Shown here: one piece after another, positions 33,036 to 38,066 of the stretch
Layout: each line of letters opens with the position of its first letter
Numbering within the stretch: the first letter of the stretch is position 1
Source: Gemmatimonadales bacterium
GTDB taxonomy: Bacteria > Gemmatimonadota > Gemmatimonadetes > Gemmatimonadales > GWC2-71-9
NCBI GenBank assembly: GCA_036500345.1
Contig: DASYCE010000013.1
Coordinates: 1 to 64,000 of the forward strand
Length of the DNA: 64,000 nt
Direction: 5' to 3'
Made by a program: the position numbers and the translations under genes
Notes under the pieces: generated by a model
Databases searched by the model: none
The model's input: only the letters and a program-made list of their open reading frames with translations
Told to the model about the DNA's origin: nothing

Positions 33036-33716
33036 ATGACCGGCAGGCAGCCCTTCGTGCTGTACGAGTGCGGCCTGGCACGCCAGGGGTGCGCCGCGAG
33101 CTGTTCGACGCTCGACGACCTCCTCCGGGCGGTCAAGACCGAATCGGACTCCGTCATCGAGCACCACATGATGCGCTGCGTGCTGGAGGATCATTTCGAA
33201 TTGCACGAGTTTCCCAACGACCTCGCCCGCTGGTGCTGGGACTCGCTCGGCGACCACGTTCTCGGCGAGCAGCTCGGCCTCGTCGACCCGTACCGGCACG
33301 CCTCGATCGCGTCGCTGCGGGAGTCGCTGGCGTCGATGATCACCGATCGCGTCGACCACCAGGAGGTGCCGCTCGTCTGCCGGCCCGGACTCGAGCTGCA
33401 GCTGATGCGGTCGCGATTGATCGCCTATCCGACCGACGAATCATTCGCCACGCCGGTGGCGCTCGCCGAAGCGCTCCCCAGCTTCTCCCTCGCCTCGATC
33501 TTCTTTCACGTGCACGAAGCGCGTCGCCGCTCCGACAATCGCACCGACGACTTCTCGCAATGGCTCGAGGAGTGCGACAGCGACCCCGGCATCGTGGCGT
33601 CGATCCGCGGCATCGACTTCTACTTTCTCAATCTGCACCAGTTGCGCGACGAGCTGCAGCGGGTCTTCCACCGGTTCATGCCCGATGCGCCGAGCGTCAC
33701 CGGAGCGGCAGCATGA
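33036..33716 (+). CDS. DUF5752 family protein heading the trehalose operon
   Basis: A 226-residue cytoplasmic protein of the DUF5752 family. It opens FVLYECGLARQGCAASCSTL and contains HHMMRCVLEDHFELHEFPND, WCWDSLGDHVLGEQLGLVDPY and SIFFHVHEARRR; the histidines and acidic residues would suit metal or ligand binding. Genes of this family regularly sit next to trehalose or glycosyltransferase genes, as here, suggesting an accessory or regulatory role for the TreT-like enzyme. ATG 33036 has a CTGGAGG ribosome-binding site. A TTATCAC string just upstream may be the promoter. The stop overlaps the next start by 4 nt. Confidence 0.75.
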   Translation: MTGRQPFVLYECGLARQGCAASCSTLDDLLRAVKTESDSVIEHHMMRCVLEDHFELHEFPNDLARWCWDSLGDHVLGEQLGLVDPYRHASIASLRESLASMITDRVDHQEVPLVCRPGLELQLMRSRLIAYPTDESFATPVALAEALPSFSLASIFFHVHEARRRSDNRTDDFSQWLEECDSDPGIVASIRGIDFYFLNLHQLRDELQRVFHRFMPDAPSVTGAAA

Positions 33717-34939
33717 CGCTGCTCGACCGGTACGAAGAGGTCGTGGGGCATCAGGCGGTGCTGCACCTGCGCCAACTCGCCGAGCGGCTGCAGGGAAAGC
33801 GGGTGGTCCATGTCAACTCGACACGTAGCGGAGGGGGTGTCGCAGAAATCCTCGGGTGGATGATCCCGCTGCTCAACGAACTCGGCGTGGAGGCGCGCTG
33901 GGAAGTGATCAGCGGCCCGCCGGAGTTCTCCCGTATCACGAAGGCATTTCACAATGGCATCCAGGGGATGCCGGTCTCGCTGTCGAAGCACGATTTCGAC
34001 CTCCATCGCGAGGTATGCCGCGACAATGCCCGGCGCCTCAACCTCGATGCCGATGTGGTCTTCGTGCACGACCCGCAGCCGATCTACGTCCCGGTGTATG
34101 CGTCCGCGAATGAGGCGCGCTGGGTCTGGCGTTGTCACATCGACGCATCGCGTCCCGACGAGGCGATCTGGAAGCATCTCGAGGGAGCGCTTCCGAAGTA
34201 CGATGCGACCGTCTTTTCCATGGCCGCGTTCGCACGGCACCTGGAGAAGCCGGCCTTCCTGATCGCGCCGTCGATCGATCCACTGTCGGAGAAGAATCGG
34301 CCGCTCACGGAGCCGGAGCGACTCGAGACGCTCGAGCGGCTCGGGATCGATCGCGACCGGCCGCTGCTGCTGCAGGTTTCCCGCTTTGACAAGTTCAAGG
34401 ATCCCCTCGGCGTCATCGAGGCGTTCCGGCTCGTCAAGCCGTATCTCCCCGAGGCGCAGCTTGTCCTCGCCGGCGGATCGGCCGACGATGATCCGGAAGG
34501 GCCTGAGGTGTACGCGAAAGTGCAGGAAGCGGCAGGCAACGATCCGGACATCAAGGTGCTGATGCTGCCGCCCGACGCTCCGCGCGACATCAACGCACTG
34601 CAGCGGTCGGCGACTATTGTGCTGCAGAAGTCGATCCGCGAGGGATTTGGCCTCACGGTCACTGAAGCGCTCTGGAAAGGCGTCCCCGTCATTGGTGGTG
34701 CGACCGGAGGGATTACGCTGCAGGTGCACGACTACCAGACCGGGTTCCTCGTCTACTCGCCTGCCGGCGCGGCGTACCGCATCCGGTATCTCATGCGCTA
34801 CGCCGACAAGCGCGAGCGGATGGGACGCGCCGGGCACGCATTCGTCCACGAACACTTTCTCCTGATTCGCCAGCTTCGCGAGGATCTGCAGATGCTGCTC
34901 TGTCTTGACCGCCCCGGCAACGAAACCCTGGTGGTCTGA
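33713..34939 (+). CDS. treT: Trehalose synthase TreT-like glycosyltransferase (GT4)
   Basis: A 408-residue GT4 glycosyltransferase resembling TreT, which forms trehalose directly and reversibly from a nucleotide-diphosphate glucose and glucose. Supporting segments are VVHVNSTRSGGGVAEILGWM near the N-terminus, VWRCHIDASRPD, LLQVSRFDKFKDPLGVIEAF, and the donor-binding IREGFGLTVTEALWKGVPV with its E-x7-E type pair. ATG 33713 overlaps the DUF5752 stop by 4 nt, and otsA follows 2 nt after its own stop. The nucleotide preference (ADP, UDP or GDP) cannot be judged. A different GT4 role in synthesis of a trehalose derivative is the main alternative. Confidence 0.85.
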   Translation: MTLLDRYEEVVGHQAVLHLRQLAERLQGKRVVHVNSTRSGGGVAEILGWMIPLLNELGVEARWEVISGPPEFSRITKAFHNGIQGMPVSLSKHDFDLHREVCRDNARRLNLDADVVFVHDPQPIYVPVYASANEARWVWRCHIDASRPDEAIWKHLEGALPKYDATVFSMAAFARHLEKPAFLIAPSIDPLSEKNRPLTEPERLETLERLGIDRDRPLLLQVSRFDKFKDPLGVIEAFRLVKPYLPEAQLVLAGGSADDDPEGPEVYAKVQEAAGNDPDIKVLMLPPDAPRDINALQRSATIVLQKSIREGFGLTVTEALWKGVPVIGGATGGITLQVHDYQTGFLVYSPAGAAYRIRYLMRYADKRERMGRAGHAFVHEHFLLIRQLREDLQMLLCLDRPGNETLVV

Positions 34940-34941
34940 CG

Positions 34942-37248
34942 ATGGGTCCAATCCAGGCGCCTCCGCGGGCCCGTTCGCAGACCAGTCGCTCGTTCCGCGC
35001 GGCAGTCATCATCGCCGTGGTGTTCGGCCTTTGCGCCACGATCCTGAAATGGCACCAGACCGAGGTGCAGAAGTCGCAGGATGTTGCCGAGGTCGACCGC
35101 CGTGCCCGCGATCTCGCCAACGGCCTCATCCCGCCGGTGCGCGAAGCGCTGGCGCGTCATGATTCAGCGGCGGTTCAGGCGCTTGCACCGCGGCTCGAAG
35201 GATTCGGCAAGGTCATCGGCTTTGCGGTCTATCGCAGCAACGGGCAGCTCTTTGCATCTGCGCGCGCCGTACGCGGCCTCGCCGACACCTTGCCGGCCGC
35301 GCTGCGGGCCGGCCTCCGGAACAACAACGAAGCGGTGACCGCGACGCGCTGGCAGGGGCTGCCGGTCCGCCTCTTCGCCATTCCGGTGCGAAGCGAAAGC
35401 GGTGGCGAACGCGGCGTCCTCGTCGTGGTGCACGACGTGTCGTACATCACCGACCTCGCGACGCAACGGCTGACCCGGTCGGCGCTCTGGATTCTCTTCC
35501 TGATGCTGCTGCTGATGATGATGGTGGTCGCCACGACGTGGCTCGTGTACGACCGCCAACTGCACAAGCTCGCCGAGTGGATGCAGCGGCTGCGCACCGA
35601 GAATGTCCCCGAATCGCCGCCGCCGGGGCTGCCGGTGGCGTTGCTGGTGAGCGAGAGCAACCGGCTGGCGGCGTCGTTGCGCGCTGCGCGATCGGTCGGT
35701 CTCTCCGAGTCGGAAGCGGCGCTGCGCGCCGAGCAGTCGTGGACCCGCGACCGGTTGCGCACCCGCGCCGTGGCGGTGCTGAAGCACGGTCAGCTCATCG
35801 TGGTGAGCAATCGGGAGCCGTATCTGCATCGCAAGGTGAACGGACGTCTTCAGGTCACTATGCCGCCCGGCGGCCTCGTGTCGGCGCTCGATCCGGTGCT
35901 GCAAGCCTGCGGCGGCCTCTGGGTCGCCAATGGGTCGGGCGACGCCGATCGCGAATCGGCCGATCAGTTCGGGCGTCTTACGGTCCCGCCCAAGGACCCG
36001 CGCTACACGTTGCGCCGGGTGTGGCTCACCGAGGAAGAGGAACAGGGGTACTACTACGGCTTTGCCAACGAAGGGCTCTGGCCGCTCTGCCATCTCGCGC
36101 ACGAACGTCCGGTCTTTCGCGCCGGCGACTGGGAGCAGTACGTCAAGGTCAACCAGCGCTTCGCCGACACCGTGGTCGAGGAGATGGGCGCCGGCAGCGG
36201 GATGGTGCTGGTGCAGGACTATCAGCTCGCACTGGTGCCGCAGATGGTGAAGGCGGCGCGTCCCGACGTTCGCGTCGGGCTCTTCTGGCACATTCCATGG
36301 CCCAATCCCGATTCGTTCCGGATCTGCCCGTATCGCGCCGAGCTGCTGAGCGGCATCCTCGCCGCCGACCTGGTCGGGTTCCACTTGCAGCAGTACTGCA
36401 ACAGCTTCCTCGACACGATCGACCGGATGCTCGAGACACGCGTCGACCGCGATCACTTCGCGGTGGAATCGCGCGGTCACACGGCGCACGTACGCGCCTT
36501 CCCGATCAGCGTGGAGAGCTGGCGCGATCGCGCACCGACCACCGAAGCGACCGAGATTCTTCTCGCCGACATTCGCGACCGGTATCTCACCCCCGGCACG
36601 CAGCTCGGTGTCGGCGTCGACCGGATCGACTATACCAAGGGCCTTCCCGAGCGGTTTCGCGCCATCCGCTGCTTCTTCGAGCGCTATCCGCAGTACCGCG
36701 AGCGCTTCACCTTCGTGCAGATCGGCGCGCCGAGCCGCACGAACATCAGCCGGTACCGGGACCTCGTGTCGGAGCTCGAACGGCTGGCCGATGAGATCAA
36801 CGGCGCATTGCAGACCGATACCTGGAAGCCGATTCACCTTCTCGTCGGTCCTGCCGACGGCGCCACGGTACACGCATTCCTCAGGCTGGCGTCGATGTGC
36901 GTCGTCTCGTCACTGCACGACGGGATGAACCTCGTCGCGAAGGAATACGTGGCGGCGCAGGAACATGACGACGGCGTGCTGATCCTCTCCGAGTTCGCCG
37001 GCGCCGCGCGCGAGCTGAGTGACGCCATCATCATCAATCCCTACGACATCGATCGCTTCGCCGACGCGATGCGCGCCGCGCTGGAGATGCCGGCGACCGA
37101 ACGGCGGGAGCGGATGCAGCGGATGCATCGCGAAGTCGAGGAGCACAACGTCTACCGCTGGGCGGCCAACCTCCTCACTGCGCTCGCGGCGATCGACCCG
37201 CTCCCCGCCACCGTGCTGGCGTCGCGCGATACCGCGATCCCCGCATGA
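34942..37248 (+). CDS. otsA: Trehalose-6-phosphate synthase fused to an N-terminal membrane sensor-like region
   Basis: A 768-residue protein. Residues 284-755 are a complete GT20 OtsA domain: VVSNREPYLHRK, the MPPGGLVSAL glycine loop, FWHIPWPNPDSFRICP, GVDRIDYTKGLPERFRAI and SSLHDGMNLVAKEYVAAQ retain the substrate residues. The first 283 residues are unlike OtsA. A transmembrane helix (about 19-37) precedes an extracytoplasmic stretch of ~140 residues (38-178, including VIGFAVYRSNGQLFASAR, reminiscent of a CACHE/PAS-like sheet). A second helix (180-203) and a HAMP/coiled-coil-like linker (205-275) follow. The enzyme should therefore be membrane-anchored with the catalytic part in the cytoplasm and might respond to an external signal. 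It is a single uninterrupted frame with uniform codon use. Its stop overlaps otsB. Confidence 0.9.
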   Translation: MGPIQAPPRARSQTSRSFRAAVIIAVVFGLCATILKWHQTEVQKSQDVAEVDRRARDLANGLIPPVREALARHDSAAVQALAPRLEGFGKVIGFAVYRSNGQLFASARAVRGLADTLPAALRAGLRNNNEAVTATRWQGLPVRLFAIPVRSESGGERGVLVVVHDVSYITDLATQRLTRSALWILFLMLLLMMMVVATTWLVYDRQLHKLAEWMQRLRTENVPESPPPGLPVALLVSESNRLAASLRAARSVGLSESEAALRAEQSWTRDRLRTRAVAVLKHGQLIVVSNREPYLHRKVNGRLQVTMPPGGLVSALDPVLQACGGLWVANGSGDADRESADQFGRLTVPPKDPRYTLRRVWLTEEEEQGYYYGFANEGLWPLCHLAHERPVFRAGDWEQYVKVNQRFADTVVEEMGAGSGMVLVQDYQLALVPQMVKAARPDVRVGLFWHIPWPNPDSFRICPYRAELLSGILAADLVGFHLQQYCNSFLDTIDRMLETRVDRDHFAVESRGHTAHVRAFPISVESWRDRAPTTEATEILLADIRDRYLTPGTQLGVGVDRIDYTKGLPERFRAIRCFFERYPQYRERFTFVQIGAPSRTNISRYRDLVSELERLADEINGALQTDTWKPIHLLVGPADGATVHAFLRLASMCVVSSLHDGMNLVAKEYVAAQEHDDGVLILSEFAGAARELSDAIIINPYDIDRFADAMRAALEMPATERRERMQRMHREVEEHNVYRWAANLLTALAAIDPLPATVLASRDTAIPA

Positions 37249-38066
37249 CGCGCGCGGGCCAGGAGATCGTCGCGCGACTCGCGACGGTGCATCGCAACGG
37301 CGGCACCGTGGTGATCCTCCTCGATTACGACGGCACCCTCACGCCGATCGTGGCCGACCCGCGCCTCGCCGTCCTCGATCCAGCGCGGCGCGAACTCCTC
37401 GCGGCGCTCGCCGCGATTCCGCGGGTCGCAGTCGGCGTGATCAGCGGACGGATGCTGGTGCAGCTGCAGGATTTTGTCGGCGTCCCGGGTCTCTATTATG
37501 TCGGCACCGGTGGGATGGAGATCGATCTCCTCGGCCGCCGGGTGCACCACCCGGCCGAACGGGAATGCGGCGAACTGATCGACACCGTCGCGCGGCAGCT
37601 GCAATCGCTGCAGGATCAGTGGGTCGGTTCGTGGATCGAGCGAAAGCCGGTCGGCATCACCATCCACTATCGCGGTGTTGCCGCTGACGCGAGGCCGCGC
37701 TTTCTCGCGGCAGTCGACACCACGCTGGCGCCGTGGATGCCGCAGCTCTCGCTGCTCGGCGGGCCGATGGCGCTCGAAGTCCTGCCGCGACTCGGATGGA
37801 ACAAGGGGAACGCGGTCGAGATCATCCTCGATCACATCGACGGCGCGCTGACAATGCCGATCTACGTGGGAGATGAAGCGAACGACGGCCACGCCTTCGC
37901 GGCAGTGATTGCTGCCGGTGGCCTGGCCGTCGGTGTCGGAGCCCAGGCGCCGGGGGCGGCCTCGTACTGGCTGGCCGATCCCGACGCGCTCCGTGACCTC
38001 CTCGGCGAGCTGCGAAGCGCGCTCGCCGCGGATCGCTCTAGCTCTTCATCGCCATCGCGTCGTTGA
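37245..38066 (+). CDS. otsB: Trehalose-6-phosphate phosphatase
   Basis: A 273-residue HAD-family phosphatase that dephosphorylates trehalose-6-phosphate. Motif I is LLDYDGTLTPIV (nucleophile Asp27, general acid Asp29). The motif VISGRMLVQLQDFVG follows, and motif IV/Mg site lies in PIYVGDEANDGHAF. The cap domain lies between. ATG 37245 overlaps the otsA stop by 4 nt. The final ~10 codons (SSSSPSRR) overlap, on the opposite strand, the end of the peroxiredoxin gene, so the C-terminal tail is probably non-essential. It completes the OtsA/OtsB route beside the TreT route in the same operon. Confidence 0.93.
   Translation: MTRAGQEIVARLATVHRNGGTVVILLDYDGTLTPIVADPRLAVLDPARRELLAALAAIPRVAVGVISGRMLVQLQDFVGVPGLYYVGTGGMEIDLLGRRVHHPAERECGELIDTVARQLQSLQDQWVGSWIERKPVGITIHYRGVAADARPRFLAAVDTTLAPWMPQLSLLGGPMALEVLPRLGWNKGNAVEIILDHIDGALTMPIYVGDEANDGHAFAAVIAAGGLAVGVGAQAPGAASYWLADPDALRDLLGELRSALAADRSSSSSPSRR

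Follow-up and report, generated by a model that had tools for sequence, protein, structure and literature searches.

Can the synthesis of an osmolyte be driven directly by a membrane receptor? Bacterial osmolyte synthesis is normally described as governed by transcription or by intracellular ions and metabolites, and the question is raised by one gene in the window (the whole stretch of 64,000 nucleotides of Gemmatimonadales DNA that was analysed). This gene is a single uninterrupted open frame (34942..37248, 768 aa), and a first-pass annotation had read it as a transmembrane (TM) helix, an extracytoplasmic part of ~140 residues, a second TM helix, a HAMP-like linker and a GT20 trehalose-6-phosphate synthase, OtsA. 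Hydropathy peaks and the Pfam match bear out this layout. TM1 (residues 17-37; 34990..35052) begins the helix 16-71 of the structural model and is followed by an extracytoplasmic single PDC/Cache domain (38-178; 35053..35475), TM2 (180-203; 35479..35550), a HAMP-like segment (204-256; 35551..35709), the end of the signalling helix together with the N-terminal helix of the enzyme (257-283; 35710..35790; invariant W267 and L272) and the GT20 domain (284-748; 35791..37185), all on the + strand. A receptor-type sensing half and an OtsA enzyme are thus certainly united covalently in one gene.

The annotation had proposed a search for homologous fusions and their spread, and had named misassembly or a frameshift as one danger to its reading. 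A tblastn-type scan of ~85,000 species genomes returned at least 582 relatives, a figure which counts any GT20 similar enough to pass. Among the best 80 of these the query is covered almost end to end in unrelated assemblies, in single frames of ~750 residues with the same N-terminal part, the exceptions being L018 (broken frame) and L081 (gene cut by the contig end). These 80 come from Pseudomonadota, Acidobacteriota, Planctomycetota, Nitrospirota, Myxococcota, Elusimicrobiota, Omnitrophota, Bacteroidota, Rokubacteria, Methylomirabilota, Krumholzibacteria, Edwardsbacteria and Goldbacteria. More than 90 full-length relatives share the layout across about a dozen phyla, and their hosts are mostly uncultured lineages from soil, groundwater and wastewater. 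Most are metagenome-assembled genomes, so single taxonomic placements may be wrong, and the same origin is what could be said for the fusion being an annotation, misassembly or frameshift artefact of two adjacent genes. Against more than 90 independent single-frame copies in about a dozen phyla, which form one consistent tree, the probability of such an artefact is close to nil, and the number of these copies excludes a frameshift or misassembly.

The enzyme half is intact. PF00982 matches residues 284-748 with 422.6 bits against a curated cut-off of 32.5 (E 2.6e-126; Pfam). In an alignment with E. coli OtsA (from NC_000913), to which the window protein is 33% identical over the aligned part (151/458), all eleven residues which we take from general knowledge of the E. 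coli enzyme to form its donor and acceptor sites are identical (R9, G22, Y76, W85, D130, H154, R262, K267, R300, D361 and E369, E. coli numbering), and the same eleven are identical in 78/78 relatives. The earlier description of a complete GT20 OtsA with its catalytic residues retained therefore holds for the window protein and extends to its family. The score for TIGR02400, the OtsA equivalog, is 440.4 bits and lies under the cut-off of 564.85, for which reason the protein is filed as an OtsA-like GT20. Its product would be trehalose-6-phosphate, formed from glucose-6-phosphate and an NDP-glucose, judging by the catalytic residues and the neighbouring OtsB gene. Glucosylglycerol-phosphate synthase was ruled out, as it scored lower (287 bits vs a cut-off of 569) and OtsB adjoins. 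As in the window's genome, the fusion is the sole GT20 match in 46/49 genomes of relatives tested; the remaining three hold, one each, a second match far under the family cut-off, a second fragment and a second long copy.

Structure prediction and comparison with Cache and HAMP profiles had been suggested for the N-terminal part. An AlphaFold2 model of residues 1-300, built from 76 aligned relatives, reached a mean pLDDT of 87 (~90 in the extracytoplasmic part), and in it a long N-terminal helix followed by an antiparallel sheet, the signature of the PDC fold, is predicted between the two TM helices. In comparisons with Foldseek and VIA-align, 260 residues of the N-terminal module, among them the TM helices and the HAMP region, aligned with an integrative model of whole WalK (Z 16.1, rmsd 4.2). 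VIA-align Z scores were 14.2 for the crystal WalK receptor domain, 14.0 for DctB, 13.6 for CitA, 13.1 for KinD and 13.0 for DcuS; by entry, PDB 4ywz gave Z 14.2 (rmsd 2.6 over 131 residues) and 8biy gave Z 13.6 (rmsd 2.2 over 115). Because of these structural matches the extracytoplasmic part is assigned as a single PDC/Cache domain, and a double (dCache) fold was set aside since the model has one PDC domain. Where the annotation had allowed that the homologues might share no conserved fold, a Cache fold was thus found.

At the level of sequence profiles the resemblance is faint. All matches of the family profile to known proteins had E values above 0.01, namely WalK (0.033), KinD (0.083), DcuS (0.3), a HAMP-bearing chemoreceptor (0.09) and the AF1503 HAMP (0.6). 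The window protein itself misses the Pfam Cache cut-off (dCache_1, 14.3 bits vs 45); individual relatives match sCache_3_2 (25/76) or dCache_1 (23/76), with a best E value of 8.9e-06. The conserved ectodomain residues G93, Y97, D165 and S167 look structural or generic to Cache domains and region 108-150 is variable, which made an attempt to deduce a ligand from conservation fruitless. A common ligand for the family is unlikely, because the ectodomain evolves faster than the enzyme and the putative ligand region varies.

The segment that follows TM2 was examined in the same way. Pfam returned no HAMP match for the window protein and weak ones for 21/76 relatives (best E 6.4e-05). The segment nevertheless has the features of HAMP, with two helices after TM2, a starting proline (P206 in 77/79 family proteins, replaced by Q206 in the window protein) and a glutamate in the second helix (E238 in 78/79), in register with proven HAMP domains in a gap-poor kinase alignment. 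The comparison with profiles therefore yielded both a Cache fold and a HAMP-like segment, the window protein itself lying under the Pfam cut-offs. A profile search of 395 genomes of the window's phylum found, besides the fusions, other frames, mostly of ~500 residues, which matched over positions 1-253 with E values of ~1e-26 to 1e-34. These run on into kinase domains, and the one scanned with Pfam carries HAMP (44.9 bits vs a cut-off of 25), HisKA and HATPase_c. The alignment of fusions with kinases starts at TM1 and continues through HAMP with about one gap, and this end-to-end, nearly gapless match to HisKA/HATPase kinases indicates that the sensor module is homologous in its entirety to the input module of a kinase. 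Histidine kinases with the Cache-TM-HAMP module of the fusion include L105:798-2300 and similar frames in L106-L113 and L122; in genome G254 the L105 kinase lies ~2 kb upstream of a sensor-OtsA gene. At L116:3681-4613 the sensor module is truncated within HAMP and stands in frame with what appears, by eye, to be a GH15 glucoamylase tail, through either a deletion or an assembly error.

Spacing along the module is strongly constrained. From D165 to position 206, that is, across TM2 into HAMP, there are exactly 41 residues in 79/79 proteins, and from E238 to W267 there are 29 in 76/79. The HAMP connector between 206 and 238 varies from 30 to 36 residues, as the ectodomain varies too. Fixed TM2-HAMP and E238-W267 spacing around a variable connector is the pattern expected of phase-locked signalling helices, not of a loose anchor. 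Pairwise dN/dS, estimated with a simple counting method under which several pairs were saturated, ranged over 0.08-0.63 in the ectodomain, 0.015-0.44 in HAMP and linker and 0.03-0.13 in GT20. In most pairs no part evolves faster than the ectodomain, which is under purifying selection, every finite estimate of its dN/dS lying below 1. Between L054 and L070 the GT20 domains are 91% identical and the ectodomains 42%, which suggests that the sensing part has changed rapidly or been exchanged.

In trees of the GT20 domain a weakly supported branch (64/58) has the sensor-fused enzymes to one side, so a single origin of the fusion is compatible with the data but not shown. The window copy groups with those of Gammaproteobacteria, Acidobacteriota and Planctomycetota (100/100) and not with the sensor-OtsA proteins found in its own genus (G004) and order, and for this reason it has probably been laterally exchanged. 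The nearest sensor-less enzymes, of ~500 residues and 44-49% identity, keep the W267 helix, and a full-length model agrees (pLDDT ~93 for this helix). The helix therefore belongs to the enzyme, and its use as a sensor-specific signal linker was ruled out because plain OtsA sisters have it as well. The annotation had counted the whole of residues 1-283 as non-enzyme; its TM helices, ectodomain and HAMP-like segment stand, and its last helix (~264-283) passes to the enzyme. Several sensor-less sisters sit in the same OtsA-OtsB-DUF5752-TreT operon, from which it follows that the sensor is an add-on that the operon can do without.

In the window the genes overlap or nearly touch, and DUF5752-TreT-sensorOtsA-OtsB looks like one operon. 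On the + strand, a DUF5752 protein (33036..33716, 226 aa; PF19027, E 9e-51) overlaps by 4 bases with a TreT-like GT4 glycosyltransferase (33713..34939, 408 aa; PF21269, E 1.1e-49; NF041139 362 bits, under its cut-off of 775); both precede the fusion gene, which in turn shares 4 bases with the trehalose-6-phosphate phosphatase OtsB (37245..38066, 273 aa; TIGR00685, 127.8 bits, above its cut-off of 68.05). Among 44 loci with 3.5 kb or more of flank on either side, OtsB is present in 38 and DUF5752 together with TreT in 26. The order sensorOtsA-OtsB-DUF5752-TreT occurs in 19 of them and that of the window in 3, while in 11 OtsB alone adjoins the fusion gene and in 3 all three partners are absent. 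The DUF5752 protein reaches ~460 residues in five relatives, and an MscS beta-domain was found in all three that were checked. In these (L017:3258-4634, L023:9015-10418 and L060:8762-10150) MscS-type channels encoded beside trehalose genes have DUF5752 as their C-terminal half, an arrangement suggestive of an osmotic function for DUF5752; the MscS genes of the window's genome are located away from the fusion operon. The osmotic link of sensor-OtsA is drawn wholly from such neighbours.

Other arrangements were seen around these loci. GH15 trehalase-like genes or fusions adjoin some of them, and in a planctomycetote (L010:3215-5992) OtsB is fused to a trehalase-like GH15 directly upstream of sensor-OtsA, which places synthesis and possibly breakdown in one locus. 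A frame from the window's genus (L119:3250-5370, - strand), considered as a further sensor fusion, proved to be an S6PP-like HAD phosphatase ahead of a divergent GT20, the reverse of the usual synthase-phosphatase order. In Acidobacteriota, the phylum of G439, proteins of ~910 residues join a Na+/H+ exchanger (PF00999, E 5e-23 to 2e-18, ~10-11 TM segments) to the same GT20 OtsA subfamily (L161:4144-6876:-, L162:2586-5342:+, L163:3856-6585:-, L160:4067-7051:- and L146:3795-7430:-). With L150, L157 and L158 included on grounds of homology, such antiporter-OtsA fusions occur in at least eight genomes, and L146 and L150 branch just outside the group of sensor-OtsA and plain OtsA.

The whole N-terminal module and the intact enzyme fit direct switching by an outside signal, and the fusion is probably a signal-regulated one-component membrane receptor whose output would be trehalose-6-phosphate synthesis. 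The Cache domain would bind a ligand or register an envelope or osmotic change, and this would shift TM2 and the HAMP helices within a parallel dimer, as in kinases. The two GT20 protomers could then pack or oligomerise differently, which would change trehalose-6-phosphate output, with control exerted through neither a phosphorelay nor a transcription step, and OtsB would next free trehalose. By analogy with the TPSP-GT-MSC operon of Thermoproteus tenax, the same membrane complex may also include the TreT-like GT4 and the DUF5752/MscS partner. OtsA enzymes form monomers, dimers and tetramers, and in mycobacterial OtsA an allosteric site lies at the interface of protomers (PMC6879718); control via dimer geometry is therefore plausible. 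The structural half of the annotation's receptor idea is sustained by the Cache fold with its HAMP-like segment, the end-to-end kinase homology (E ~1e-30), the phase-locked spacing and the wide spread. Purifying selection on the ectodomain, invariant catalytic residues, a fusion that is the sole GT20 match in nearly all genomes tested, operon conservation and the MscS-DUF5752 fusions also support a receptor. It is weakened by the failure of the window protein to reach the Pfam Cache and HAMP cut-offs, by Q206 in place of a near-invariant proline, by an ectodomain that evolves faster than the enzyme and varies in its ligand region, and by the sensor-less sisters, which make the sensor dispensable for the pathway as such.

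These sisters could also be expected if the N-terminal module were only a membrane anchor or scaffold that holds OtsA at the inner membrane near the TreT-like GT4 and DUF5752/MscS and passes no signal. The rapid evolution of the ectodomain points the same way, as do the antiporter fusions in the same subfamily, since attachment to a membrane protein may itself be selected. However, an anchor has no need of a Cache fold, of a kinase-type TM2-HAMP register kept in 79/79 proteins or of conserved HAMP positions, nor does it account for purifying selection on the ectodomain, and a mere anchor is considered unlikely. A role for the sensor in regulated assembly, in which it would govern how the GT4 (and the MscS/DUF5752 partner) is brought to OtsA, and not OtsA geometry, is in keeping with the conserved neighbours and the MscS-DUF5752 fusions, and has a possible precedent in T. 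tenax, where TPSP is active only in complex with the GT of its operon (PMC3634074). Yet with OtsB as the only neighbour in 11/44 loci and none of the three partners in 3/44, this explanation appears quite improbable. As to the broader proposal of a widespread receptor class, in which Cache sensors would allosterically switch a membrane trehalose-6-phosphate synthase within a trehalose/mechanosensitive-channel operon, with a parallel class fused to Na+/H+ antiporters, the case is evenly balanced.

If a receptor does drive the committed enzyme directly, this would be a third route of osmolyte control, fast and free of a phosphorelay, by which the cell may switch on trehalose, a stress protectant, straight from an outside signal. 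The idea is directly testable with the natural sensor-less and antiporter-fused sister enzymes, the former being a natural control, and DUF5752 gains a likely role in osmotic or envelope stress. The annotation knew of no characterised example, and no description of a Cache/HAMP-OtsA was found among the open-access papers searched, a result that falls short of proving that there is none. Of the Geobacter sulfurreducens protein GSU2337 it is said only that it contains a TPS-like domain (PMC2700814). Both halves are known, the receptor module and OtsA, and it is their union that is undescribed within the open-access literature searched.

Compared with known systems, the fusion resembles the OtsA of E. 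coli and Mycobacterium in catalytic residues, fold and OtsB neighbour, whereas the known enzymes are soluble, and those that have been studied are governed by transcription or small metabolites (e.g. PMC6879718); here the enzyme is fused to a sensor. With histidine kinases of the WalK/YycG, DcuS, CitA and KinD type it shares the fold and order of the whole TM-Cache-TM-HAMP input module, and with kinases of the window's own phylum direct sequence homology, but the output is a GT20 enzyme instead of HisKA-HATPase and would involve no phosphorelay. The closest characterised parallel is the msc-gt-tpsp operon of T. tenax, which gathers TPS, TPP, a GT4 and a mechanosensitive-channel-like protein and in which an operon partner controls TPS activity (PMC3634074); OtsB and the TreT-like GT4 of the window, and the MscS-DUF5752 proteins of some relatives, may correspond to these partners. 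The T. tenax TPS forms one protein with TPP, next to a separate channel gene, whereas here the sensor module is covalently attached to TPS. The HAMP-containing one-component receptors, namely diguanylate and adenylyl cyclases and chemoreceptors, offer the same combination of transmembrane sensor, HAMP and direct output. Their outputs make or relay signals, whereas here the output would be an end-product pathway, and the fusion may be regarded as a variant of the one-component transmembrane receptor whose output, a biosynthetic enzyme, falls into another class.
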